Shown here: in pieces, positions 4,125 to 27,240 of the stretch
Numbering within the stretch: position 1 is the first letter of the stretch
Layout: each line of letters opens with the position of its first letter
DNA from: a virus
Direction: 5' to 3' (one strand)
DNA: 64,000 nucleotides
IMG/VR virus record: IMGVR_UViG_3300020406_000804
Span: 1 to 64,000 of that record
The notes under the pieces: model-generated
Database searches by the model: none
The model's input: the letters and a program-made list of their open reading frames with translations, nothing else
Told to the model about the DNA's origin: nothing
Translations under genes and position numbers: made by a program

Positions 4125-4452
<328 letters not shown>

Positions 4453-5211: not shown

Positions 5212-5601
5212 ATGACATATTCAAAAAAAGTAATAGATCACTTTGAGAATCCTAGAAACGTAGGATCACTAGATAAAAATGATGACTCTGTAGGGACAGG
5301 TATCGTTGGCGCTCCTGCTTGTGGAGACGTTATGAAACTTCAAATCAAAGTAAGTGCCAATGGTTTAATAGAGGACGCAAAATTTAAAACATACGGATGC
5401 GGATCTGCTATAGCTTCGTCATCCTTGGTAACTGAATGGATTAAGGGAAAAACCCTTGATGAAGCTACACAAATTAAAAATAAAGACATCGCAGACCATC
5501 TGTCGCTCCCACCTGTAAAAGTCCATTGCTCTGTTTTGGCTGAAGATGCCATCAAGACTGCTATTGAGGATTATAAAAAGAAAAATGATAACACTAACTG
5601 A
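5212..5601 (+). CDS. iscU: Fe-S cluster scaffold IscU
   Basis: This 129-residue protein has full IscU length. It keeps all three cluster-binding cysteines at the E. coli positions (C37 in APACGD, C63 in YGCGSAIASSS, C106 in VHCSVLAEDA), the exchange-controlling D39, and the chaperone-binding loop LPPVK at 99-103, which HscA recognises. It assembles [2Fe-2S] clusters from iron and sulfur delivered by a cysteine desulfurase. No IscS, HscA or HscB gene is in the window, so it would work with host partners. Read from a leaderless strong promoter and followed by iscA in an overlapping frame, it is likely expressed early and at a high level. An intact active site argues against a decaying fragment. 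Confidence 0.95.
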   Translation: MTYSKKVIDHFENPRNVGSLDKNDDSVGTGIVGAPACGDVMKLQIKVSANGLIEDAKFKTYGCGSAIASSSLVTEWIKGKTLDEATQIKNKDIADHLSLPPVKVHCSVLAEDAIKTAIEDYKKKNDNTN

Positions 5602-5899
5602 TTCTGCTGCTAAAAAAATAAAATCCCTCCTTTTAGAAAAATCTGAAACTGGAGTAAGGGCCGCTGTCCAAGGCGGAGGATGCTCTGGCTTTACCTATCA
5701 ATTAAAATTTGATAATCAAAACGAAAAAGATAAAGTCGTAGAAAGTCACGGAGTTAATGTTTACGTTGACCCTAAAAGTTTTTTATATTTAATGGGCACA
5801 CTAATAGACTTTGTAGATGAGTTAAATCAGTCCGGCTTCAGATTTGTAAATCCAAACGCTAAAAGAACTTGCGGCTGTGGAGAGTCATTTTCTATTTAA
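5585..5899 (+). CDS. iscA: A-type Fe-S carrier (IscA/HesB family)
   Basis: This 104-residue protein starts at ATG 5585, within the end of iscU (17-nt overlap). The longer frame from 5546 adds residues unlike the family. The three conserved cysteines are present: C33 in GGGCSGFTYQL and C96/C98 in TCGCGESF, the C-terminal signature. A-type carriers take clusters from IscU and pass them to apo-enzymes, and some can insert [4Fe-4S] clusters. Overlap with iscU implies translational coupling. IscA, ErpA and SufA cannot be told apart here. Confidence 0.93.
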   Translation: MITLTDSAAKKIKSLLLEKSETGVRAAVQGGGCSGFTYQLKFDNQNEKDKVVESHGVNVYVDPKSFLYLMGTLIDFVDELNQSGFRFVNPNAKRTCGCGESFSI

Positions 5900-5912
5900 A
5901 ACTATTTAATAT

Positions 5913-6797
5913 ATGAAAAGTATTAAAAGTTTTAGCACTCCAAACATCAGGAAATTAATCGGAGACACACCATTAATAAAAATCTCTCCACACATATATG
6001 CAAAACTTGAAACATACAGCCCATCTGGATCTGTAAAAGATAGAATGATTCATTATATTGTTGAGAGAGCAAGAGTTTTTGGAAAAATAACAGAAAAATC
6101 AATACTTTGTGAAGCAACTTCTGGGAATACTGGAATTGCACTTTCAATGATGGCTGCCTCTCTTGGAGTTAAGTGTGTAATATTTATGCCAAAAAATATG
6201 TCTGAAGAAAGAAGGCAGATGATGAAAATTTATGGAGCAAAAATAATTGATGCACCAGAGCATGACTTTGCCGGTGCATTAGCAATGAGAGACCAATATT
6301 TATTAGCAAATGAAAATGCTTGGTCACCAAAACAATTTAGTAATAATTATAATGTATTGTGTCACCAAACAAGCACAGCTCCAGAAATACATAAACAAGT
6401 AATAGATACAAAATATTATTGGTCAGCTTTTGTTCATGGTTCTGGTACCGGCGGAACCATTGAAGGTGTAAGAAAATATGTATCAAACAATAATTTAAAA
6501 ACCAAAATTTGTTTAACTAGACCAGCAGAAGAGGACCATGGCATTCAAGGAATTGGAGACGGAAAAGATTATTTATTCAATTCAGAAAATGCAGATAGAA
6601 TTATAGAAATAAAAACACAAGAAGCTATATCTAGAGCAAAGAATTTCATAGAAGAGACAGGCATTTTAATTGGTATTTCTTCTGGTGCAAATTTACTAGC
6701 AGCTGAAAGATATGTGAATACAATGAATCCTTCTGGTATTGTAGTGACAATGTTATGCGATCGGGGTGAGAGATACATGTCTATTTATGGTAAATAA
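5913..6797 (+). CDS. cysK: Cysteine synthase-like PLP enzyme
   Basis: This 294-residue protein belongs to the O-acetylserine sulfhydrylase / cystathionine beta-synthase fold. PSGSVKDRM carries the PLP lysine, TSGNTG the substrate loop, GSGTGGT the phosphate-binding loop, and GIQGIGDG and GISSGAN follow as usual. It is slightly shorter than CysK (about 310-320), mostly between GTGGT and the end. The expected reaction is O-acetylserine plus sulfide giving cysteine. Placed right after iscU-iscA, it may raise cysteine, the sulfur donor for cluster assembly (inference). A related activity with another beta-substituted serine cannot be excluded. Confidence 0.88.
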   Translation: MKSIKSFSTPNIRKLIGDTPLIKISPHIYAKLETYSPSGSVKDRMIHYIVERARVFGKITEKSILCEATSGNTGIALSMMAASLGVKCVIFMPKNMSEERRQMMKIYGAKIIDAPEHDFAGALAMRDQYLLANENAWSPKQFSNNYNVLCHQTSTAPEIHKQVIDTKYYWSAFVHGSGTGGTIEGVRKYVSNNNLKTKICLTRPAEEDHGIQGIGDGKDYLFNSENADRIIEIKTQEAISRAKNFIEETGILIGISSGANLLAAERYVNTMNPSGIVVTMLCDRGERYMSIYGK

Positions 6798-10818: not shown

Positions 10819-10846
10819 TTGACATATCAAAAAAATTTGTTATAAT
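10819..10846 (+). promoter_or_regulatory. Consensus sigma70 promoter of tilS
   Basis: TTGACA, 16-nt spacer, TATAAT, ending 6 nt before ATG 10853. The mRNA should be leaderless, and there is no Shine-Dalgarno. Confidence 0.85.
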
Positions 10847-10852
10847 TTTTTT

Positions 10853-11455
10853 ATGATTAGAATTATTCGCAAAATTCCCTTAACTGTTACAGTTGCCTGT
10901 TCTGGGGGAATTGACAGCATGGCCGTTGTTAATTTTCTTTTGCAAGGAAAACGCAATGTGCGTTTGGCTTTTTTTAATCACGATACTCTTCACTCTCGGA
11001 ATGCTGAGCAGTTTGTAAAAAACTATGCCCATGAAAAGAATATAGACCTGCATTTAGGCCGAGTCCGAGGAAAAAAAGGTAAGCGCTCCATGGAAGAGTT
11101 TTGGAGAGATGAAAGATATTCTTTCCTTAACAGTGTACAATCTAATTTTATCATTACATGTCATCATCTAGACGATGCAGTTGAAACCTGGGTTATGTCA
11201 GCTATGCATGGTAAGTGTAAACTGATTCCATACCACAGGCCTGAAAACATTTATCGACCTTTTTTAATGACATCTAAAAAGAGTATAAAAGAATATGCTC
11301 AAAGAAAAAATTTAGAATGGATCGAAGACCCTTCAAACACAAGAACAGAGTATATTAGAAACCACATTAGGCACACCTGCATGCCGCATCTTTTAAAGAT
11401 AAACCCAGGAATACGAACTATGATTAGAAAAAAAATAATTGAAAATTATCTCTAA
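10853..11455 (+). CDS. tilS: tRNA(Ile)-lysidine synthase, N-terminal domain form
   Basis: This 200-residue protein is a PP-loop ATPase with SGGIDS at 17-22. TilS signatures are CHHLDDAVETWVM and EDPSNTRTEYIRNHIRH. TilS joins lysine to C34 of the tRNA with anticodon CAU, so that it reads AUA as isoleucine rather than AUG. The protein covers the catalytic domain only. Cellular TilS is longer, with C-terminal domains that help grip the tRNA. A tRNA gene with a CAU anticodon starts 23 nt downstream, which strongly fits this function. The tail is well formed up to the stop, so it looks reduced rather than broken. Confidence 0.88.
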   Translation: MIRIIRKIPLTVTVACSGGIDSMAVVNFLLQGKRNVRLAFFNHDTLHSRNAEQFVKNYAHEKNIDLHLGRVRGKKGKRSMEEFWRDERYSFLNSVQSNFIITCHHLDDAVETWVMSAMHGKCKLIPYHRPENIYRPFLMTSKKSIKEYAQRKNLEWIEDPSNTRTEYIRNHIRHTCMPHLLKINPGIRTMIRKKIIENYL

Positions 11456-11467
11456 TTATGTTATAAA
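11439..11467 (+). promoter_or_regulatory. tRNA promoter
   Basis: TTGAAA, 17-nt spacer, TATAAA, overlapping the end of tilS. Transcription would start about 3-5 nt before the mature tRNA end. Confidence 0.55.
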
Positions 11468-11477
11468 ATAACTAAGA

Positions 11478-11554
11478 GGGCCTATAGCTCAATCGGTTAG
11501 AGCAACAGTCTCATAAACTGTAGGCTCCTGGTTCAAGTCCAGGTGGGCCCACCA
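11478..11554 (+). tRNA. tRNA with CAU anticodon, probably tRNA-Ile2 (AUA)
   Basis: This is a complete 77-nt cloverleaf with encoded CCA. The acceptor is GGGCCTA/TGGGCCC plus A73, the D arm AGCTCAATCGGTTAGAGC, the anticodon stem ACAGT/ACTGT with loop CTCATAA, and the T arm CCTGG-TTCAAGT-CCAGG. Initiator type is excluded by the paired first base. Between elongator Met and Ile2, C4-G69 and C5-G68 are the pairs that, as I recall, E. coli TilS favours. With tilS next door, Ile2 is the better call. It would supply the AUA codons common in this AT-rich genome. Confidence 0.9.
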
Positions 11555-16825: not shown

Positions 16826-18088
16826 ATGAACAAAAAAAAGATATTAGTAATCTCCGATTCCCCATTAGTTCCTTCGGGGGTTGGTACGCAAACAAAATAT
16901 ATGATAGAAGCTCTTTTGGCCACAGGTAAATATAGTTTTTTCTGTTTAGCCGGAGCCATGAAGCACAAAGACTACAGAGTTATGACGGTTGACCCTTATG
17001 GAGAAGACTGGAAGATAAAACCTGTTGATGGCTATGGTGATCAGAACTTAATCCGTGCGATTCTTAGAGATTTTCGACCTGATGTTGTGTGGTTTATGAC
17101 AGATCCTAGATTTTACATCTGGCTTTGGGAGATAGAAAATGAAATAAGAAAAAATGTACCAATGGTATATTATCATGTCTGGGATAATTATCCTTATCCA
17201 ACTTTTAATAAAGAATATTATGAATCCAATGATCTCATATGTACAATAAGCAAGGTTACAGATGACATTGTAAAGAATGTATCACCAGATGTTAAAAGTA
17301 TTCGAATACCTCATGCTGTTGATACCGAAATCTTTAAAAATAAAAAACAAGACCCCGAAACAAATAAATTTAGAAAGATGGTTACTGGAGAAGAGAATAA
17401 AGATAAGCTTGTATTTTTTTGGAACAATAGAAACGCCCGACGTAAGCAATCCGGAACTTTAATTTTCTGGTTCAAAGAATATCTAGATATTGTTGGCCAC
17501 GACAAAGCATGTTTAGTTATGCACACAGAACCACACGACCAAGCCGGCCAAGACCTTCAGGCGATAATTAATCGTCTAGAACTTAATAGAAATCAAGTTT
17601 TGTTGTCAACAAAAAAGCTTTCACCCAAGAGTTTAGCAAGCTTATATTCAGCAGCTGATTGTACAATAAACATTTCCGATGCTGAAGGTTTTGGCCTTTC
17701 TACTCTAGAGTCTTTAGCCTGCGAGACACCCATTATTGTGAATATGACCGGCGGACTGCAAGAGCAGGTTACGGATGGAAAAGAGTGGTTTGGTTTTGGC
17801 ATCAAGCCCTGTTCACGAGCTATAATAGGCTCTCAGGATGTACCCTGGATATATGAAGACAGAATTTCAAAAGAAGACTTTATTGAAGTTATGGTTAAGT
17901 TCACTAACTTCACAGCAGAACAAAGGAAAAAAATAGGTCAAAAAGCAAGAAGCCATGTTCTTCAAAATTATGGATTTGATAGTTTCTGCAAACAATGGCA
18001 AGATACAATAGAAGCCTTGATCGATGAGCATGGATCTTGGGAAGAAAGAAAAAATTATAAAAGCTGGAAATTAGAGGAAATAAAATGA
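16826..18088 (+). CDS. Glycosyltransferase, GT4-like
   Basis: This 420-residue protein is a GT-B enzyme. VISDSPLVPSGVGTQTKYM is the N-terminal glycine-rich loop, and SDAEGFGLSTLESLACETPI carries the retaining GT4 signature ExxxxGxxxxE that contacts the nucleotide sugar. It transfers a sugar to an unknown acceptor. First of five glycosyltransferases in the operon, it overlaps the next gene by 4 nt. Confidence 0.88.
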   Translation: MNKKKILVISDSPLVPSGVGTQTKYMIEALLATGKYSFFCLAGAMKHKDYRVMTVDPYGEDWKIKPVDGYGDQNLIRAILRDFRPDVVWFMTDPRFYIWLWEIENEIRKNVPMVYYHVWDNYPYPTFNKEYYESNDLICTISKVTDDIVKNVSPDVKSIRIPHAVDTEIFKNKKQDPETNKFRKMVTGEENKDKLVFFWNNRNARRKQSGTLIFWFKEYLDIVGHDKACLVMHTEPHDQAGQDLQAIINRLELNRNQVLLSTKKLSPKSLASLYSAADCTINISDAEGFGLSTLESLACETPIIVNMTGGLQEQVTDGKEWFGFGIKPCSRAIIGSQDVPWIYEDRISKEDFIEVMVKFTNFTAEQRKKIGQKARSHVLQNYGFDSFCKQWQDTIEALIDEHGSWEERKNYKSWKLEEIK

Positions 18089-19410
18089 TCAAAGTATTAC
18101 TAGAAGGCCCAATACTAACAAGATCAGGGTACGGCGAACATACAAGATTAATATTTAAATCAATTTATAATATTGATAATTTTATTATTCACATAAACCC
18201 GCTTCAATGGGGTCAGACCGGGTGGATATCAGAGCAAGATACGGAACTGTATAATGAAATTCAGATGGCCATTAATAACTTTGCAAACTATGAACAAGAA
18301 ACTAGTGGTCAAAATTCTTTGAAATATCATTTACAAATTCAAGTAGGAATTTTAAGTGAGTTTGTAAAAAAAGGTGAAAAGTCAATCTGCGTTACTGCAG
18401 GTATAGAGACGGACAGAGTTTCTTTAGATTGGTTATTGAAAACTCATGCTAGAACAATTGATCCAATTAGAAAAGAAAGAACTTTTGGTGTTGATAAGGT
18501 TATAGTTCCTTCAAACCATGCAAAGTATGGATTTGAAACTACATTTGCTAAATTCAATTTCGAAGGGCGCCCAATGGAAGTAGGCTTAGGGTGCCCTGTT
18601 GACGTAATATCCTATCCAGTTAAAAACATTGAAGCAAAAAATATAGACTTTTCTTTGGAAACTGATTTTAATTTTTTAACTGTTGGCTTACTTGGCCCTA
18701 GAAAAAATATAGAAGAAAGTTTAATTTGGTTTTTAGAAGAATTTAAAGACGATCCTAACGTTGGCTTTATAATAAAAACAGGCTATAAAAGTGGATCTAA
18801 TTTAGATAGAGTTGCAACCAAAAAATATTTAAAAACTATTTTAGAAAAACATAAAGATAAAAAATGCAAGGTTTATTTGCTCCATGGAGACTTGACGGAT
18901 GAAGAATTGCATAGCCTATATTTAAGAGAAGATGTTAAAGGCTATGTAACAACGACAAGAGGTGAAGGCTTCGGTCTTCCGTTGTTTGAGGCCGCATACA
19001 GTGGGTTGCCAATTATCGCAACAGATTGGTCTGGACATTTAGATTTTCTTTCTGCTCCTTATACAAACAAAGGAAAAATAAAAAACAAGAAGCTTTTTTT
19101 AAGAGTTGATTATAAACTAAAAGAGATACATAAATCTGTTATCTGGAATAATATTCTAGTGGAAGGTTCCAAATGGGCATACTGCGTAGAACAGTCTTTT
19201 AAAAGACAGATGAGAGAACTATATAAAAACACCGGATTACATAAGAAGAGAGCTATGCAACTTAAGAAGCACATACAAAAAGAACTGAAAGAGGAAAAGA
19301 TACTGAAAGAAGTTAGAGGTTCTATACTCGGAGAATCTGCAGAATCCTTTGTTGCTTCTGATAAAGACTTGGCATGGAGAAGAGAGTTATCAAGGATAGA
19401 GCTTTTATGA
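18085..19410 (+). CDS. Glycosyltransferase, GT4-like
   Basis: This 441-residue protein has the GT-B fold. It begins IKVLLEGPILTRSGYGEHTR. TTRGEGFGLPLFEAAYSGLP is the ExxxxGxxxxE donor-binding stretch, followed by ATDWSGHLDFL. Its plan is like the preceding gene but the two are clearly diverged. The last 70 residues are a basic helical tail. It joins the next gene by ATGA. Confidence 0.85.
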   Translation: MIKVLLEGPILTRSGYGEHTRLIFKSIYNIDNFIIHINPLQWGQTGWISEQDTELYNEIQMAINNFANYEQETSGQNSLKYHLQIQVGILSEFVKKGEKSICVTAGIETDRVSLDWLLKTHARTIDPIRKERTFGVDKVIVPSNHAKYGFETTFAKFNFEGRPMEVGLGCPVDVISYPVKNIEAKNIDFSLETDFNFLTVGLLGPRKNIEESLIWFLEEFKDDPNVGFIIKTGYKSGSNLDRVATKKYLKTILEKHKDKKCKVYLLHGDLTDEELHSLYLREDVKGYVTTTRGEGFGLPLFEAAYSGLPIIATDWSGHLDFLSAPYTNKGKIKNKKLFLRVDYKLKEIHKSVIWNNILVEGSKWAYCVEQSFKRQMRELYKNTGLHKKRAMQLKKHIQKELKEEKILKEVRGSILGESAESFVASDKDLAWRRELSRIELL

Positions 19411-20291
19411 AAAAAATTATTATTATTTCTGATTTATTTAAAGAAGATTATGAATCGGCCAAAGCACCCTGCGGAGGTGCAGAATTAAACGATCATATTC
19501 TATTTTCTTTTCTAGAAGACAAGGGCATAGTTAAACACAAGATTCATTCAAATGAGTTCGAAACTAATCAGATGATTAGCTTTTTTGATTTAAATAAAGA
19601 TTGTTTATACTTAATAAGTAATTTCTCAAATCTACATTTTAGAGCCGCGGCATTTCTACAAAAAAATTGTAAATATATTATTTACGAACATGATTATAAG
19701 TTTCATAAGTATAGAAATCCATTAAGATATACAAATTTTATCGTGCCAAAAGACGAAATTATAAATCTAAATTTTTATAAATCAGCAGAAAAAGTCATAT
19801 GTTTGAGCAAGCTCCATCATGATATATTTTTAAATAATTTAAGCCTAGAAAATTTACACAATACAACTTGTAGTTTGTGGAGTGATGAAACTTTAGAATA
19901 TATTGAGAATATTTTAGAAACAAAAAAGAATAATAAACTCGCAATAGTTAATTCAGAGAACCCAATAAAAAGAAGAGATGATTGTATAAGATATTGTCAA
20001 AAAAATAAAATTAATTTTGATTTAATTTCATCTCCTGATTATAATAATTTTTTGTCATTATTGTCAAAATATGAAGGAATAGTAATTCTCCCTGGCCATC
20101 CCGAGCCAACCCCCAGGGTAGCAGTAGAGGCAAAGATGCTAAACTGTAAAATATATTCAAATAAAAAGAGCCTTGGTATTGCCAGCGAAGAATGGTTCAA
20201 TTTAAACGGAAAAGAACTAATAGAAGAGGTAAAAAATATAAGGGAAAGATTTTTTAGATATATGGAAAAGGAGATATTAAATGAAATATAA
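19407..20291 (+). CDS. Glycosyltransferase-like protein
   Basis: This 294-residue protein starts at ATG 19407 (ATGA with the previous stop, GGAT upstream). KKIIIISDLFKEDYESAKAP and CGGAELNDHI are like GT-B N-terminal loops, and LPGHPEPTPRVAVEAKMLNC near the end replaces the usual E(7)E donor site. Only one Glu of that motif is obvious, so activity is less certain. It is shorter than its two upstream neighbours. Confidence 0.65.
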   Translation: MKKIIIISDLFKEDYESAKAPCGGAELNDHILFSFLEDKGIVKHKIHSNEFETNQMISFFDLNKDCLYLISNFSNLHFRAAAFLQKNCKYIIYEHDYKFHKYRNPLRYTNFIVPKDEIINLNFYKSAEKVICLSKLHHDIFLNNLSLENLHNTTCSLWSDETLEYIENILETKKNNKLAIVNSENPIKRRDDCIRYCQKNKINFDLISSPDYNNFLSLLSKYEGIVILPGHPEPTPRVAVEAKMLNCKIYSNKKSLGIASEEWFNLNGKELIEEVKNIRERFFRYMEKEILNEI

Positions 20292-21081
20292 TATTTTTAC
20301 TGTTTTAAACGAGGCATATGAAAAGTTTGGAATTTTGTTTGTAAGCTCCGCAATAGATAGATTAAACTTAGATAAGATTGAAAATATTTTTATATACGAT
20401 ACTGGCCTTACAGAAAAAACTATAAGCAAACTTAAATTATTTGAAAAAGTAAAAATTATTGAGAGTGGACTGTCGGTACCGAAATCGGAGGGTAAATTAC
20501 ATGACGCCGCATGGCAAAAAATTGTTTATTCAAAAGCAAATTTACTCAAACACTGTGTTGAGAGTCAAGATAACTTTTTACCAACAGCTATGATTGATAT
20601 AGATAGCATTTTTGTTCAAGAGTTCTACGATCTGATAGACGTGAAAAGCGATTTAACTTTATGCAGAAGATCTACTCGCGGCAGAGGACACAACCACCAG
20701 GCAAAATCATCTCATATAGGTAGCTTCTTTTCTGTTAACCAAAGAAATGAAAAAACAATAAATTTTCTAGAAAATTGGGTCTCACAAATAGAGAAGACAG
20801 CAGGGGTCGCTACTACTATAATCAAAGATGAACAAGGTAATCCTGAAGAAAAATATATGTTTCAACCAAAAGAGTCCCCGGCTCTTAGCCATGTTTACCA
20901 AGAACTAAAAGAAGAACTAAAAATTTCAGAAATTGCAGAGCCAATAATTTCAAATATAGAGCCCTTGCCGCCTAGAGAGGCAAGAATATATCATTTAAAG
21001 TCGGATGCTCAATGGCCAACGATAGAGTCTAGAGTTTTTCAGCCCCGTGCCTCATTTTATAGTAAAAGGTACTTTTTGTAG
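20281..21081 (+). CDS. GT-A type glycosyltransferase-like protein
   Basis: This 266-residue protein overlaps the previous gene by 11 nt. PTAMIDIDSIFVQEF contains a D-x-D metal site typical of GT-A enzymes. The fold otherwise shows alternating strands (IFTVLNEAYEKFGILFVSSA). The substrate is unknown. A Pro- and Arg-rich C-terminus follows (LPPREARIYHLKSDAQWP). Confidence 0.6.
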   Translation: MKYNIFTVLNEAYEKFGILFVSSAIDRLNLDKIENIFIYDTGLTEKTISKLKLFEKVKIIESGLSVPKSEGKLHDAAWQKIVYSKANLLKHCVESQDNFLPTAMIDIDSIFVQEFYDLIDVKSDLTLCRRSTRGRGHNHQAKSSHIGSFFSVNQRNEKTINFLENWVSQIEKTAGVATTIIKDEQGNPEEKYMFQPKESPALSHVYQELKEELKISEIAEPIISNIEPLPPREARIYHLKSDAQWPTIESRVFQPRASFYSKRYFL

Positions 21082-21082
21082 C

Positions 21083-21835
21083 ATGAAAAGTAAAAATTTA
21101 ATTATCTATGTTTTGGTTGGTATGAGGGACTTTTCTAAGCTAATAGAATCAATAAAGATAGCTAGAAGCTTTAACTATGATATTGATATAAAAGTTTATC
21201 ACGATTGTGACAAAAGTCTTATAGAAGAATCTTTAGATACTTATAGCGTACAATATAGAAAATATAAAAGAAAAAAATATCCAATTCGAGAAGAGAACAG
21301 GAACAGCAGCTTATGGCGTCTTGTCTCTATTCTAGAAAACAAAGATAAGTACGAATCCATACTATACTTAGATAATGATATTTTTATCGTTCATAAAGGC
21401 TTTTTTGAAGGCTTTGATATAAGCAAAAACTTTGGTATTTGTATGGTTCAAAATCCTAGAATGTTTATTAAAACTTACGAAGGGAACATCGGAGATTTAG
21501 ATATTGGAACGGATGTCTTGCCATTTGATAAAATGTTTGTTACAGATATGCCAAGTTATATGACTTCTTATAATATGGGAGTTATGTTTTATAGCAATAC
21601 AGAAAAAAGTTCAGATTTTTTAGCTGAGCTTTTATGGGAGCAGCAAAATAATCCTTCACGAGGCCAAGCAGGGCTGTATAGAACAATATGGAAGACAAAA
21701 TTAGCACCCTATTGCCTACCAATTAATTGGCTTGTTTGCAAGAAGCACGCCAATATTGATAATCCACTATCTTTACATGTAGGTCACGGAAACGTGTTTA
21801 AAAGGTGGTTAGAGGAATATAAAGTTGTCATTTAA
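21083..21835 (+). CDS. GT-A type glycosyltransferase, GT8-like
   Basis: This 250-residue protein starts at ATG 21083, two bases after the previous stop. The frame's earlier start lies in that gene. SILYLDNDIFIVHKGF holds the D-x-D metal site, and PINWLVCKKHANIDNPLSLH then HVGHGNVFKRW give the late His used by GT8 enzymes. It would transfer a hexose or similar in the same pathway. Confidence 0.65.
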   Translation: MKSKNLIIYVLVGMRDFSKLIESIKIARSFNYDIDIKVYHDCDKSLIEESLDTYSVQYRKYKRKKYPIREENRNSSLWRLVSILENKDKYESILYLDNDIFIVHKGFFEGFDISKNFGICMVQNPRMFIKTYEGNIGDLDIGTDVLPFDKMFVTDMPSYMTSYNMGVMFYSNTEKSSDFLAELLWEQQNNPSRGQAGLYRTIWKTKLAPYCLPINWLVCKKHANIDNPLSLHVGHGNVFKRWLEEYKVVI

Positions 21836-22817
21836 TTTTTATGAAATAGGCTCTTATTGGCGCCCATATGAATTGGAATCTGCAAAAAAATACTTTGGAG
21901 AGATAACTAAAGATTTTAAAAAAACAGATTTATTAATATGCAGAAATAATACAGAGTGTATGTCTAGCAATACATTATCTCAAGCCATAAATTTAGAAAA
22001 AATATTTTTACATGAAAATAAAAATGGCAAAATTATAAATCCGTCACTAAAATATAAATATTCAAATAATAAAGATGAATGTTTTTCAAAGTGGGATCTG
22101 CATAAAATTCCACATCCAAAATGTAGGATAATAAACCACAGGAAAGATTTAGAAAATATACATTTTCCATATTTGTTGAGGCTAAATGACGGAGTTACCG
22201 GAGAAGATACTTTTTTGATTGAAAGTATTAGCGACATTGATAATGCGTGGCTAAAATTAGAAAAATCCCTAGCAGAAAAAAGTAGAATCAACACAAAAAT
22301 AATCTCAGTTGACTTTATAGATACTAAAACTGCTGATGGATTTAACATATCTTATAGGATTATAGTATCTGGCAAGAAAGTGGTTTGCGGCTATGCCAGG
22401 ATTAGTGATGATTGGCTAGCTATAACTAAACAATTCACAGAAGATAAAAAAGAGGCATTTATAAGAGAAAATAAAAAACTTGCCAAAATTATCGATAAGA
22501 ATAGAGACACGCTAGTAAAGGCAGTAGAGGTGGTGGGCCACCATCATGTAGGAATTGATGCAATTCCAGATCAAAGTGGAAATCTGCACTTGCTAGAGAT
22601 ACAACCATTTTATTTTTGCGGAGATACTAGAAGGACCTCTGGTCCATTTTGGAATCCGTATAAGCCAAAAATATTAGTAGATTGGCTAATAAATGATAAG
22701 AATAATCTTGAAAAAGAAATACCAGAGTATTATAATAGGTGGTTAGACAAAAAAGCGCATTTCGATTTTTGTTATAAATCCTTGAAAGAGAGCCTATTAG
22801 ATGTTCGGTCCGAATAG
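21825..22817 (+). CDS. ATP-grasp-like protein 1
   Basis: This 330-residue protein starts at TTG 21825 behind AGAGGA. An ATG nearby is out of frame. FPYLLRLNDGVTGEDTF, YRIIVSGKKVVCGYARISDD and GIDAIPDQSGNLHLLEIQPF follow the order of ATP-grasp domains (nucleotide loop, Arg, metal-binding D..E). The usual ExNP is ExQP here, and the first loop has R where K is usual. A paralogue lies at 23648 with the same changes, and a PLP aminotransferase stands between. Such enzymes join a carboxylate to an amine through an acyl phosphate. The substrate is unknown. Confidence 0.6.
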   Translation: MSFNFYEIGSYWRPYELESAKKYFGEITKDFKKTDLLICRNNTECMSSNTLSQAINLEKIFLHENKNGKIINPSLKYKYSNNKDECFSKWDLHKIPHPKCRIINHRKDLENIHFPYLLRLNDGVTGEDTFLIESISDIDNAWLKLEKSLAEKSRINTKIISVDFIDTKTADGFNISYRIIVSGKKVVCGYARISDDWLAITKQFTEDKKEAFIRENKKLAKIIDKNRDTLVKAVEVVGHHHVGIDAIPDQSGNLHLLEIQPFYFCGDTRRTSGPFWNPYKPKILVDWLINDKNNLEKEIPEYYNRWLDKKAHFDFCYKSLKESLLDVRSE

Positions 22818-23664
22818 CATATCCGAATTCTCATATGACATGAGATATTCTCATAGAACTAATAAATTTAAAAATTTATATAAAAATTGCAAAGAGTTGA
22901 TTTTAAAAAAATTTGATTTATCAGAATATGATTTAATTTTCGCTCCTGGATCTGGAACGACAGGAATGGAAATAGTAATATCTTCCTTGAAAGATAAAAT
23001 ACAAGTTACTGGAAATGAAGGTAAGTTTAAAACAAGGTGGTTTGAATATGCAAAGAACAATGATAAGTATAATAAAAATTCTAATTTAAATTTATTTTGC
23101 CAACTAGAGACATCTACTGGAGAAGTGCATTATGAGGAAGCGGGAATTGTCGATGCAATATCTTCTTTTCCATATTATAAAATACCGAAAGATACAAAAT
23201 GTTTTGTAACATGCAGTAACAAACAACTAGGAGCATTTCCTGGCTTAGCATTGATATTTGTAAGAAAAGATAGTTGGAACATATTTGAAAAAAAAGATTA
23301 TTTTTGCACAAAAGATATAATGCTTTACAAAAAATATTCAGAAGAAAACCAGACACCAACCACATGCCCAGTCCAAATATTTTCTCAACTTAAAAAAGTT
23401 TTAAAATCTTTTAATGTTAAAAGTCATAGAAAAAAAATTAATAAAAATTGTGACATGGTCTCTAGCACCGTTAAGATAAATAATGACATGCCGTGTCCTG
23501 TTATAAACTTTTCAAAAAAAGAGATACCAAAAAAAATAGCTTTTAAATATGAGTTATATAATCACAATAATGAAAAAAAGATATATCAAATTTTCTCATA
23601 TTCAAATAAAACAAAAAAATACAAACAACTTCTGAAAGATATTAAAAATGCGAAACGTTATTAA
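22801..23664 (+). CDS. Class V aminotransferase-like protein, shortened
   Basis: This 287-residue protein overlaps both neighbours by 17 nt. It resembles the PhnW / serine-pyruvate aminotransferase group: FGPNSIS, DMRYSHRTNKF, GSGTTGMEIVI (PLP phosphate), ETSTGEVHYE, DAISSFPYY (Asp on PLP nitrogen) and CSNKQLGAFPGLALIF (Schiff-base Lys). About 70 residues of the usual C-terminal domain are missing or replaced by a Lys/Asn-rich tail, so it may have lost or changed activity. It may make an amino compound for the adjoining ATP-grasp enzymes (inference). Confidence 0.65.
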   Translation: MFGPNSISEFSYDMRYSHRTNKFKNLYKNCKELILKKFDLSEYDLIFAPGSGTTGMEIVISSLKDKIQVTGNEGKFKTRWFEYAKNNDKYNKNSNLNLFCQLETSTGEVHYEEAGIVDAISSFPYYKIPKDTKCFVTCSNKQLGAFPGLALIFVRKDSWNIFEKKDYFCTKDIMLYKKYSEENQTPTTCPVQIFSQLKKVLKSFNVKSHRKKINKNCDMVSSTVKINNDMPCPVINFSKKEIPKKIAFKYELYNHNNEKKIYQIFSYSNKTKKYKQLLKDIKNAKRY

Positions 23665-24700
23665 TATAACCTCACCAGGTACAAGGTGGAGAGTTTATGA
23701 AAAAGAGTGCTTAGAAAAACATTTCGGACCAGTAATTGATTTGCAATTAGGCGATCTTGAAAAATCTAAAAAAATATCTAAACTATCCTCAAGGGAAACA
23801 GTGATTTTTTGGAGGCTGAATTCAGATAGTATAACAAGAGAAGAATTAGATTTAGCGCTATTACAAAGAGAAATTTTTAAAAATTTAAATATGATAAATG
23901 ATCCCGCTAATCATCTTCACATACATGCTAAAGAAAGTGCATTTAAAGAGTGGAACAATGAAAAAATTTCAATTCCTGAATTTCAAGAGTTTGAGAAAAA
24001 AGAAGACATAAAATTAAAATTTCCTTACCTTATAAGATTAAATAATCAAGTTACAGGGCATAGTTCTTTTCTTGTAAACAATAGAGCCGAGTTAGATTCA
24101 AATTTCAAAATTTTAGAAAATGATTTTAAAAGCTCAATCTTGCAAAAGCCATTTACAAAAAAAATAGCAGTAAAATTTATCAATGCATCAAAAGAGGATA
24201 ATAAATATAACCTTTCCTACAGAGTTATTGTCTCTGGAGATAAAGTCGTAACAGGGTACGCAAGACTAAGCCCATCTTCAGACTGGGTTGCAATAACAGG
24301 AAAGTTTGATATATCTATGGGAGATTTATTTATTAAATACCAAGAAAGGTGTCAAAAAATGATAGAAACTCACCATGATGAAATTGTTCGGGCTGTAAAG
24401 TCAATAGGGATGAATCTTCAAGGAGTAGACATAATAGAGGACCAAGAAGAGAAAATATACTTCTTAGAGTGCCAGCCAGGATTTTCTACTGGATACTCCG
24501 ACTGGCCTGCACCATTTTATAACCCTCATCAAAGAGACCTAGTTGATTTTATTTTACAAAATAGGAATAAGTTTAAAACTAGGTGCTCTTTATATTATAA
24601 TAAGTGGTTGAATAAGTATAATTTATTTAACAATATTTTTAAAAATTTAAAAGACACCTTTGATAATAGGCAAAACGAAAGGAATTTAAAAGATGTATGA
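23648..24700 (+). CDS. ATP-grasp-like protein 2
   Basis: This 350-residue paralogue of the 21825 gene has FPYLIRLNNQVTGHSSFLV, YRVIVSGDKVVTGYARLS and GVDIIEDQEEKIYFLECQPG. It has the same R in place of the loop Lys and the same E-x-Q-P. Two copies around one aminotransferase suggest two successive ligations, or a heteromer. The N-terminal 100 residues (SPGTRWRVYEKECLEKHFGP) also match copy 1. It overlaps both neighbours. Confidence 0.6.
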   Translation: MRNVINITSPGTRWRVYEKECLEKHFGPVIDLQLGDLEKSKKISKLSSRETVIFWRLNSDSITREELDLALLQREIFKNLNMINDPANHLHIHAKESAFKEWNNEKISIPEFQEFEKKEDIKLKFPYLIRLNNQVTGHSSFLVNNRAELDSNFKILENDFKSSILQKPFTKKIAVKFINASKEDNKYNLSYRVIVSGDKVVTGYARLSPSSDWVAITGKFDISMGDLFIKYQERCQKMIETHHDEIVRAVKSIGMNLQGVDIIEDQEEKIYFLECQPGFSTGYSDWPAPFYNPHQRDLVDFILQNRNKFKTRCSLYYNKWLNKYNLFNNIFKNLKDTFDNRQNERNLKDV

Positions 24701-25382
24701 TGATAACTACATCTTGCCAAATGACAAGACAATAGGTTTTATGAGGCAAGACAATATGCAATGGTGGAGAACCATTGGAAAATACTCAGAAGAACCAAAA
24801 AAAAGAATGCTGATATATACTAAATTTTTAAGCAACATTAGAAATAACGTACCAGGATTTAAGATTTCAAATTATAAGAAAAAAATTGTTGGTGAAGCAT
24901 GCGGTGGTCCGTATGGGGGAATAGTTGATCAACTTTATCCCGATGAGGAAAAATATCAAATAGACATTTTTGCAGATGATTTCTCACAAATGGGCTGGAC
25001 TAGGCAAAACGGCTCTAAAACACACTGGATTGCATCACCATGTGAAAAAATTGATTTAGAAGATAATTCCTTAGATGTTCTCTTTGCTTTTAACTCTATA
25101 GATCATGGCTGGGATGTAGAAAAATCAATAAAAGAGTGTGTTAGGGTTTCCCGAGAATGTTGCATAAATTTCGACACAAACAGATATAAAGTTCCTGGTT
25201 ACCCTGATTTAAATCACTATCAAGTTGTAGATTATGATAAAGTAGCTGCTTTTTTGGATAAAAACTTTTTAAACGATAGTTATGATTTTGCAAGGTGGTA
25301 CTGGGATACCCCTGTGCCTGGTACTGATGGGAGAAAGCACTGGGTAAGAGTTTTAGAATTTTTTGTGAGAAAGAAAAAATAA
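24693..25382 (+). CDS. SAM-dependent methyltransferase-like protein
   Basis: This 229-residue protein has the methyltransferase-11 pattern: IVGEACGGPYGGIVDQLYPD stands at the SAM loop (E-x-C/G-GG), SPCEKIDLEDNSLDVLFAFN is motif IV, and IDHGWDVEKSIKECVRVSRE follows. The glycine loop differs from the standard (E/D)xGxGxG. Probably it methylates a small molecule or glycan in this pathway. It overlaps the previous gene by 8 nt. Confidence 0.7.
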   Translation: MYDDNYILPNDKTIGFMRQDNMQWWRTIGKYSEEPKKRMLIYTKFLSNIRNNVPGFKISNYKKKIVGEACGGPYGGIVDQLYPDEEKYQIDIFADDFSQMGWTRQNGSKTHWIASPCEKIDLEDNSLDVLFAFNSIDHGWDVEKSIKECVRVSRECCINFDTNRYKVPGYPDLNHYQVVDYDKVAAFLDKNFLNDSYDFARWYWDTPVPGTDGRKHWVRVLEFFVRKKK

Positions 25383-25385
25383 AAT

Positions 25386-26066
25386 ATGAATATTGAAAAC
25401 TGGCTAAAAGAAAACCGAAAGAAGACACTCTACAGCGAAGTAAAAAAGTATGCAACTGATGAAGTTCATGCAAAGGGATATAGAGAGTCGGACCCTCAAG
25501 CCCTTGAAGATCCTGTGTGGCACACTTATGCGGATATTATTAAGAAATTGTGCAATAAGTTTGATAGAAAAATAAATGCACTTGATGTTGGGTGTGGCAC
25601 AGGAAGATTTTTTTGTGCACTTGAAAATGTAAAAGAGCTGCACGGAATCGATCTCTCAGGTCCCATGCTTGAGCATGCAAGGAATCCAGTTAAAGGAGAT
25701 ATCGTAAAGAAAAACGTAGAGCAGATTATTTTACACCATGCACCCATCTACGATATTGAAAAGCTGTTTGAGCCCAAAAAATTTGATTTTGTTTTTTCGA
25801 TTGGGACAATGAATGAATATGGGGATACATCAATGGCAACCACATCTTTTTTTAATGTGCTAGACAATGTAACCACCGACGATGGGTTTATCTTTTTATC
25901 TTGCCACCCGCAGGGTGGCCACTGGGGACACCCAGATCGAATTATAGAAGAGTTTCAAAAATCAACTCTTACACAAGATTGTCAAATTAAAACTTATCGT
26001 ATACAAGATATTAAATCTAATAAATTTTGTTTAGAGATCGAAAAAGGTGTAGCGTTTAAAAAGTGA
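25386..26066 (+). CDS. SAM-dependent methyltransferase
   Basis: This 226-residue class I methyltransferase has LDVGCGTGRFF (motif I), LHGIDLSGPMLEHAR (motif II with acidic ribose contact) and KFDFVFSIGTMNEYGDT (motif IV). The substrate is unknown. It overlaps the next gene by 4 nt (GTGA). Two methyltransferases in a row suggest a heavily modified product. Confidence 0.82.
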   Translation: MNIENWLKENRKKTLYSEVKKYATDEVHAKGYRESDPQALEDPVWHTYADIIKKLCNKFDRKINALDVGCGTGRFFCALENVKELHGIDLSGPMLEHARNPVKGDIVKKNVEQIILHHAPIYDIEKLFEPKKFDFVFSIGTMNEYGDTSMATTSFFNVLDNVTTDDGFIFLSCHPQGGHWGHPDRIIEEFQKSTLTQDCQIKTYRIQDIKSNKFCLEIEKGVAFKK

Positions 26067-26593
26067 AAAAAAAGAAACTTTACTGCGATATAGATAGTAC
26101 GATAAATAATCACTGGGTGAGAATTCAAAGATGGGCTTTGCCTACGTTTCCAGGTACCTCCATTGATCAAAGGGCATTTACCAAAGAAGAGATAATGAAA
26201 GACTCACCTCTTCCAGATTCTCTAGACGCTATAAAAAAACTATCTAAGTTTTATGAAATACATTTTTTAACAGCTAGAAATTTTTTTAATGCTTATGATA
26301 TTACAAAAGAGTGGCTAGAATTTCATAAATTTCCATATGATACAATAAATGTTGTTCGAAGTTCTCGCGAAAAACCTGGATTCTTACTAAAGTCAAGTTG
26401 TGATCTTTTTATAGATGATTTATCCGCCGGTCAAGAATTCGGTCCTTCTTATAAAAATTTATATACAGAAACAATAAGAGATTTAAATTTATTTAAAATA
26501 CCTTATGAAGTATTTAGTGATTCAAATAACTGGTCTAAAATTTTATCTAAATACTTGCCAAGACAAGAAAACAAGCATGAGGTTATAAAGTGA
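26063..26593 (+). CDS. HAD-superfamily phosphatase-like protein
   Basis: This 176-residue protein starts at GTG 26063. YCDIDSTIN (nucleophile Asp and D+2), HFLTARNFF (motif II Thr), a Lys in KPGFLLK and DLFIDDL (motif IV) give the full HAD set, in the style of 5'(3')-nucleotidase or sugar phosphatase. It would remove phosphate from a sugar or nucleotide intermediate. It is joined to the next gene by GTGA. Confidence 0.72.
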   Translation: MKKKKLYCDIDSTINNHWVRIQRWALPTFPGTSIDQRAFTKEEIMKDSPLPDSLDAIKKLSKFYEIHFLTARNFFNAYDITKEWLEFHKFPYDTINVVRSSREKPGFLLKSSCDLFIDDLSAGQEFGPSYKNLYTETIRDLNLFKIPYEVFSDSNNWSKILSKYLPRQENKHEVIK

Positions 26594-27240
26594 AAAAAGT
26601 TTTAATGGTTATGGCACACCCAGATGATGAAATCATATTTGGTTGGCCTATTTTTCAAGACGAATCAATTGAAAAAAAATTACTTATTTGTTCTTCTGAT
26701 GCCAACAACCCTACAAGGCAATGGTGCAAAGACCGAAAATTAGCATTAAAAAAAATTTGTGATAAGCACAACGTAAGTCTAACTTGTCTTGACTATGATT
26801 CTTCATTCTATAAAACTCAAACAAGAAGACCCACAGGGATCCCTAGGACGCCCATGGGCGACTCTGTGGCGCCTTTTAGATCTATGTGTAAAGATATAGA
26901 ACAAAATATTAAAATTCTTGAGAGAGACTGCGATTTTATATTTACACATAATCCATACGGAGAATATGGCCATTTGGACCACATTCTTTTATTTGATTTG
27001 GTTTTGAAGAACTCTAAAAAACCAATACTAATTACAGATATGAATTTGCCCTCAAATTGGGCTAGGTCTTACGCGCCTAGTAAAATTATGAAAAAACTGT
27101 TCTATAACAAAGAGTTTAAAAAAGATTTAAATATAGATTATAATAAATATAGCTTTATCAAAAAAGAATATGAAAAGGTCAACAGTTGGACCTGGGGAAG
27201 AGAAACACCGCAATCTTGTAATTTATTTATAATTGAGTAG
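26590..27240 (+). CDS. PIG-L / LmbE family deacetylase
   Basis: This 216-residue protein starts at GTG 26590. AHPDDE at 9-14 holds two metal ligands and the catalytic Asp, and GEYGHLDH the further His ligands. Members remove acetyl from N-acetylated sugars such as GlcNAc derivatives. With glycosyltransferases and an epimerase in the operon, an amino sugar is a likely intermediate. Length is near the family norm. Confidence 0.85.
   Translation: MKKVLMVMAHPDDEIIFGWPIFQDESIEKKLLICSSDANNPTRQWCKDRKLALKKICDKHNVSLTCLDYDSSFYKTQTRRPTGIPRTPMGDSVAPFRSMCKDIEQNIKILERDCDFIFTHNPYGEYGHLDHILLFDLVLKNSKKPILITDMNLPSNWARSYAPSKIMKKLFYNKEFKKDLNIDYNKYSFIKKEYEKVNSWTWGRETPQSCNLFIIE

Follow-up and report, generated by a model that had tools for sequence, protein, structure and literature searches.

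A predicted tRNA(Ile)-lysidine synthetase gene (tilS) and a tRNA gene with a CAU anticodon stand side by side at 10853..11554 on the forward strand of the stretch analysed here (the window), the 64,000 bases that open the 90,461-base viral record IMGVR_UViG_3300020406_000804. The tilS gene (10853..11455, +) encodes a protein of 200 amino acids (aa) that comprises the catalytic domain only, and the tRNA gene, with its CCA end encoded, follows at 11478..11554 (+). The spacing from the tilS stop to the tRNA start is 22 nucleotides (nt; 11456–11477), where a first-pass annotation of this stretch had given 23. This is the sole tRNA gene of the 90-kb contig, which has a GC content of 36.5% and contains matches to the terminase, portal, prohead protease and baseplate wedge genes of T4-like tailed phages, ruling out a bacterial contaminant or fragment.

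Profile and structural comparisons support the identification of the open reading frame (ORF) as a TilS catalytic domain. The NCBIfam model TIGR02432 (lysidine_TilS_N) matches it with 129.4 bits (cut-off 93.6, E = 1.5e-37) and the Pfam model PF01171 with 124 bits; the PP-loop SGGIDS occupies residues 17–22, and H104, D108, E111, D159, N162, R169 and R173 are intact, every invariant catalytic residue being present, so that the first description of a catalytic domain with full motifs holds. The columns SGGxDS, R88, H104, D108, E111, P136, D159, N162, R169 and R173 show no variation across 108 phage rows and 99–100% conservation in 77 bacterial rows, the conserved columns of this joint alignment contain no cysteines, and a further five invariant residues (W84, G186, F28, T45 and A51) are specific to phage TilS. 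The AlphaFold model (predicted local distance difference test score 95.6, from a 103-row alignment) corresponds to the catalytic half of Aquifex TilS, whose structures 2e21 and 1wy5 are its top PDB matches (template modelling (TM) score 0.83 over the phage protein, E = 1.6e-15). The next fold neighbours are the TtuA/NcsA sulfurtransferases, with E-values several orders of magnitude weaker, and by sequence the relatives of known structure are without exception TilS (Aquifex, 4e-25; Geobacillus; E. coli). A PHROGs search matched no family named TilS; its QueC-like match was weak (E = 1.2e-4) and the TilS models far better, which rules out a QueC identity.

Known TilS proteins carry two C-terminal domains, CTD1 and CTD2 (type I), or CTD1 only (type II) (PMC12514573). 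The window protein terminates at residue 200, past the N-terminal domain (NTD) and the next helix, and both CTD1 and CTD2 are absent. Models of the TilS C-terminal domains (PF09179 and PF11734), both positive in 12 of 14 control genomes, gave zero matches across the 90-kb contig, a search that a diverged partner protein might escape; by this result a split TilS with its C-terminal domain coded elsewhere is ruled out. The protein had been singled out as minimal, with only 200 residues, and both its length and its missing domains bear this out, but it is not odd among its relatives: IMG/VR scans and annotated phages yielded 237 viral loci, whose TilS proteins, 150 of them distinct, are 189–240 aa long throughout. 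Bacterial TilS in our sample measured 287–471 aa, the shortest forms 287–295 aa. In a phylogenetic tree a single branch (support 100, length 0.85) separates the phage proteins from 26 bacterial TilS, which were picked from the best matches by similarity and thus leave room for a bacterial TilS of short form outside the sample; the best 80 bacterial matches included no short-form TilS. One record of 270,653 bp (IMGVR_UViG_3300023283_000076) carries two tilS genes about 31 kb apart (L199 and L241), which are sisters on the tree with support of 99.

ARAGORN labels the tRNA at 11478–11554 as tRNA-Met (anticodon CAT), and the Rfam tRNA model matches it with 74.3 bits. To sort CAU tRNAs into their three sequence classes we used references from E. 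coli K-12, where they are annotated (ileX/ileY, metT/metU and metZ/W/V), and from 16 other bacterial genomes, whose class labels were assigned by similarity in this analysis; in leave-one-out profiles all 33 distinct bacterial references were sorted correctly. The window tRNA is classed as Ile2, 49.7 bits ahead of the next class, in agreement with the first-pass call of Ile2 rather than Met, and elongator and initiator tRNA-Met identities are ruled out by the profile. Its closest E. coli tRNA carries a tRNA-Ile annotation, it is 82–84% identical to CAU tRNAs of T4-like phages, and its anticodon sits in a CUCAUAA loop on an Ile2-type body. The comparisons thus support its prediction as a bacterial-type tRNA-Ile2 rather than a tRNA for Met or initiator Met. 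The acceptor stem (GGGCCTA/TGGGCCC) has C4-G69 and C5-G68, like that of E. coli ileX. These pairs had been read as those favoured by E. coli TilS; they are present and mark the tRNA as Ile2, but they do not show that the phage enzyme recognises it. They are unusable in an argument about recognition, since in E. coli, where they are TilS contact sites, the acceptor-stem contacts are made by the CTD2 that phage TilS lacks (PMC12514573), and since tilS-linked tRNAs outside the window's clade are frequently without them (both pairs occur in 26 of 43 tilS-linked CAU tRNAs). Ile2-like CAU tRNAs of phages are frequently annotated as tRNA-Met (codon AUG), as in loci L005 and L006, Citrobacter phage Moon and others, and this hides the partnership of tilS with its tRNA.

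The pairing of tilS with a CAU tRNA is not chance. An overall count for the phage family gave 42 CAU tRNAs no more than 100 nt from tilS, with 2 expected, and 5 other tRNAs, with 5.2 expected. Across 108 clusters (85% identity), 37 CAU tRNAs are found at this distance, where uniform placement over 4 kb would give 1.7, while tRNAs with other anticodons are at chance level (5 observed, 4.3 expected), a result that rules out tRNA clustering as the source of the adjacency. When the window's clade is left out the difference persists (CAU, 16 against 1.1 expected; others, 5 against 4.3; Fisher p = 5e-9). On the tree the adjacency changes about 14 times (gain or loss), at least 6 of these changes being forced by well-supported branches, and the linked tRNA is found on either side of tilS amid differing neighbours. 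Most tilS-linked CAU tRNAs (38/43) are of the Ile2 type, and in all six loci with mixed classes of CAU tRNA within 4 kb (L063, L173, L175, L215, L262 and L278) it is the Ile2-type tRNA that lies closest to tilS. Members of the family without an adjacent tRNA-Ile2 often have one at a distance: among 20 tilS records searched whole, 13 contain an Ile2-like CAU tRNA, one of the 13 being ambiguous, and these include PA5oct, MIJ3 and two phages of more than 630 kb. That many unrelated large phages carry both genes side by side suggests that they work as a pair, and the enzyme–tRNA partnership proposed at the outset gains its support from this recurrent and specific association.

Some CAU tRNAs of tilS phages are unusual in form. 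Three have long, Leu/Ser-like variable arms (L054:3899–3984, L045:2891–2973 and L246:6461–6544), one of them 16 nt from tilS; that of L246 has a Leu-like body, and AUA is uncommon in these three loci (4–13 per 1000). Lying near tilS, these long-armed tRNAs may hint at unusual CAU substrates. Another three tilS phages (L369:1261, L378:865 and L375:1899) have CAU tRNAs with a shortened D-arm and without the usual U8-A9 linker, for example AGTAAAT-CCGGTGGTCCGGACT-CGGGT-CTCATAA.

Within the window's clade the tRNA follows tilS by 9–25 nt in 21 of 22 clusters, the exception (L011) having an intervening ORF, and the downstream order tilS–tRNA–ClpP–PhoH is shared, in contrast to a variable upstream side; linkage within this clade is thus partly inherited. 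Both tilS and the tRNA are intact across relatives at 57–71% protein identity. In 12 of the clade's 19 records (76–175 kb) no other tRNA accompanies the tRNA-Ile2, and the remainder carry extra tRNAs (Arg-UCU, Lys-UUU, Thr-UGU and others). AUA accounts for 949 of the 2050 Ile codons (46%) in the 90-kb contig, or 32.2 per 1000 codons, so that the earlier remark on frequent AUA in AT-rich genes is right for this phage, though it does not extend to every tilS phage, L246 being neither AT-rich nor AUA-rich. The AUA share of Ile codons is 43–51% in L013 and L025 against 16–23% in tilS loci of similar GC content such as L038, L061 and L290. Segments of the Pseudomonas jumbo phages MIJ3 and PA5oct contain 54–63 AUA per 1000; for their host, P. 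aeruginosa, the figure is 0.9 per 1000 (PMC12514573). AUA demand fits the window's clade, which is unusually AUA-rich.

These sequence observations make it highly probable, in our view, that the phage carries a self-contained AUA-decoding kit, consisting of a tRNA-Ile2 and a TilS of its own that would make lysidine for AUA decoding. Without modification tRNA-Ile2 is charged with Met and reads AUG, and lysidine at C34 confers both Ile identity and AUA reading (PMC11938285, PMC12514573). We suggest that phage TilS would adenylate C34 of the linked tRNA in an ATP-dependent step and then join lysine to it; the resulting lysidine would block methionylation and AUG reading, and the tRNA, charged by the host isoleucyl-tRNA synthetase, would decode AUA as Ile. 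The phage would bring TilS along with the tRNA because methionyl-tRNA synthetase would charge unmodified tRNA-Ile2 transcripts. An enzyme of its own could provide more tRNA-Ile2 without overloading host TilS capacity or inserting Met at AUA, and would remove any reliance on the host TilS accepting a phage tRNA. The kit would serve an unusually AUA-rich genome in the window's clade. With CTD1 and CTD2 absent, recognition would have to use the anticodon arm and nearby parts of the tRNA. More tentatively, and with somewhat less than even confidence, we propose that the catalytic domain alone represents a third TilS architecture, which would recognise its substrate with none of the C-terminal domains considered necessary and would have coevolved with the linked tRNA as a private, partly orthogonal pair.

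Several points weigh against such a kit. Known TilS proteins touch the tRNA through one or two C-terminal domains, CTD2 residues being essential in type I (PMC12514573); an isolated catalytic domain might therefore be inactive, unspecific or dependent on a partner, and we found no biochemical assay of a catalytic-domain-only TilS in the literature. Adjacency is also far from universal: 67 of 106 scorable phage TilS clusters are without an adjacent CAU tRNA, and two large tilS records (G022, 250 kb; G024, 180 kb), searched whole, gave no clear tRNA-Ile2. L246 has tilS despite a GC content of 55.5% and 4.2 AUA per 1000, so that codon demand is only part of the story across the family. The AUA figures for the window's phage, moreover, cover its own genes only.

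That L246 and L194 retain tilS without being AUA-rich is one reason to consider that the pair, through the same chemistry, restores AUA decoding when host supply fails, either because an anticodon nuclease cuts tRNA-Ile2 or because the host tRNA or TilS is lost with genome degradation. Tilting the same way, the window's clade keeps tilS with a single tRNA, which is hard to fit to general codon matching, and both tRNA-cleaving immunity (PMC12409363) and host RNA decay (PMC13191261) have been described. No defence removing tRNA-Ile2 specifically was identified in this analysis, however, and codon demand alone accounts for the high AUA use of the window's clade; we regard failure of host supply as possible but rather unlikely. 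Far less credible is an identity as a related PP-loop ATPase that acts on another substrate or amine, whether a TtcA/TtuA-like thiolase or a TilS making a different C34 derivative. The TtuA/NcsA thiolases do follow TilS among the fold neighbours, the phage family has invariant residues of its own, and E. coli TilS uses lysine analogues in vitro, with ava2C occurring naturally at C34 (PMC11938285), but the TIGR02432 cut-off is exceeded by 36 bits, TilS structures outrank the thiolases, no cysteine is conserved while H104, D108, E111, D159, N162, R169 and R173 are kept in phage and bacterial rows alike, and the genetic linkage points to a TilS substrate. We give about as little credence, if anything slightly less, to a TilS aimed mainly at the CAU tRNAs of the host (Met and initiator), which would recode them to Ile and cripple host translation, the neighbouring tRNA being incidental or replacing lost host function. 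The absence of the domains used for Ile2/Met discrimination (PMC12514573) means that specificity is not assured, but the phage itself requires Met and initiator tRNAs, and the recurrent association is with Ile2-type tRNAs, not with the Met and initiator tRNAs often carried by the same phages. Least probable of all is that the two genes are passengers picked up jointly from a host and retained through drift, a notion to which the partly inherited tilS–tRNA–ClpP–PhoH synteny lends something, but which the intactness of both genes across diverged relatives, the repeated changes of adjacency among varied neighbours on either side of tilS, and the lack of a short-form source among the best 80 bacterial matches all contradict.

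Bacteria require TilS for viability. A family that is widespread and intact, has no C-terminal domains and is linked in the genome to its probable substrate is a natural minimal system for testing Ile2/Met discrimination, which the literature ascribes to those domains (PMC12514573). The self-contained kit also suggests how a tRNA prone to mischarging in its unmodified state could be carried by a phage without harm, namely by bringing the modifying enzyme too. The ‘tRNA-Met’ genes of large phages merit re-checking, as many resemble tRNA-Ile2.

In addition to the genes themselves, we identified putative promoters for both. A consensus scan predicted a perfect sigma-70-type promoter for tilS (TTGACA-16-TATAAT, 12/12) at 10819..10846 (+); among 2000 random windows of 90 nt, 9 contained a perfect match. 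Its -10 box stops 6 nt upstream of the ATG, the typical position in clade members whose tilS has a promoter of its own and one matched exactly in eight relatives (L001, L016, L017, L018, L019, L023, L029 and L030), from which the tilS mRNA is predicted to be leaderless or nearly so. A promoter-like site for the tRNA (TTGAAA ... TATAAA/TAAAAT; 11439..11469, +) was recognized from -10-like conservation: of 22 marine-clade members, 20 have a -10-like hexamer (at most one mismatch) 4–12 nt upstream of the tRNA, whereas random positions give 9.6%, and the tRNA is thus probably transcribed separately as well. In the window the -10 lies about 8–10 nt upstream of the tRNA and the -35 within the 3' end of tilS, where the overlap with tilS codons makes its conservation ambiguous.

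Elsewhere in the window, and outside the tilS/tRNA pair, the phage carries a second translation RNA, a complete one-piece transfer-messenger RNA (tmRNA) gene at 4125..4429 (+; ARAGORN; Rfam RF00023, 125.4 bits) with the tag ANNDIEVEDFALAA. The relatives L003, L025 and L036 also have tmRNAs, with similar tags (ANDNVENFEDFALAA, ANDDIEIFEDFALAA and ANDNIEIFEDFALAA), and tmRNA genes in phages are already known (PMC9004378, PMC7162821). A NifU_N/IscU-like iron–sulphur scaffold, a Fe-S_biosyn carrier and a cysteine-synthase-like PALP enzyme are encoded consecutively at 5212–6797, and homologues recur near tilS in L002, L003, L022, L037 and L069. A long block of ORFs at 16826–27240, judged by eye to include glycosyltransferases, ATP-grasp-like proteins, methyltransferases, a PIG-L-like deacetylase and a sugar epimerase, possibly has a role in surface or DNA decoration.

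Compared with known systems, the phage protein shares its PP-loop catalytic domain and invariant residues with type II TilS (Aquifex aeolicus, 1wy5/2e21; M. smegmatis; H. pylori), the Aquifex enzyme, its best fold match, being 32% identical; type II proteins consist of NTD plus CTD1, whereas the phage protein stops one helix beyond the NTD. With type I (E. coli; G. kaustophilus, 3a2k) it shares the catalytic domain and the proposed reaction, without CTD1 or CTD2. The TilS proteins of MIJ3 and PA5oct belong to the same short family (43% identity to the window protein over its whole length), and these phages carry a tRNA-Ile2 too, but about 9 kb from tilS and inside a tRNA cluster; the accessible portion of the MIJ3 report notes the TilS and does not remark on a tRNA link or missing domains (PMC6892783). 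Putative TilS proteins are likewise described, in the sections available of the respective papers, for the Ralstonia jumbo phage RsoM2USA (PMC8504454), where the ORF of 349 aa is longer than the short phage family, and for the chloroviruses, which infect algae (PMC7589089); both proteins are assigned a proposed role in tRNA maturation or AUA decoding, and those sections make no mention of linkage to a cognate tRNA. The CAU tRNAs of T4-like phages, which have an Ile2 signature like the window's, were inferred to be of Ile2 type (PMC1524935), and a CAU tRNA of a vibriophage is known to carry lysidine (reviewed in PMC13191261). None of the listed T4-like phages with the matching tRNA is among the phage records listed with a tilS match, and they presumably use the host TilS. 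In the literature accessible to us, which takes in few subscription journals, we found no report of a catalytic-domain-only TilS or of recurrent linkage between tilS and tRNA-Ile2. Thus phage TilS and phage tRNA-Ile2 are each already known separately, and what is new, as predicted from the genomes compared here, is a TilS family consisting of the catalytic domain alone and its recurrent linkage to the substrate tRNA.
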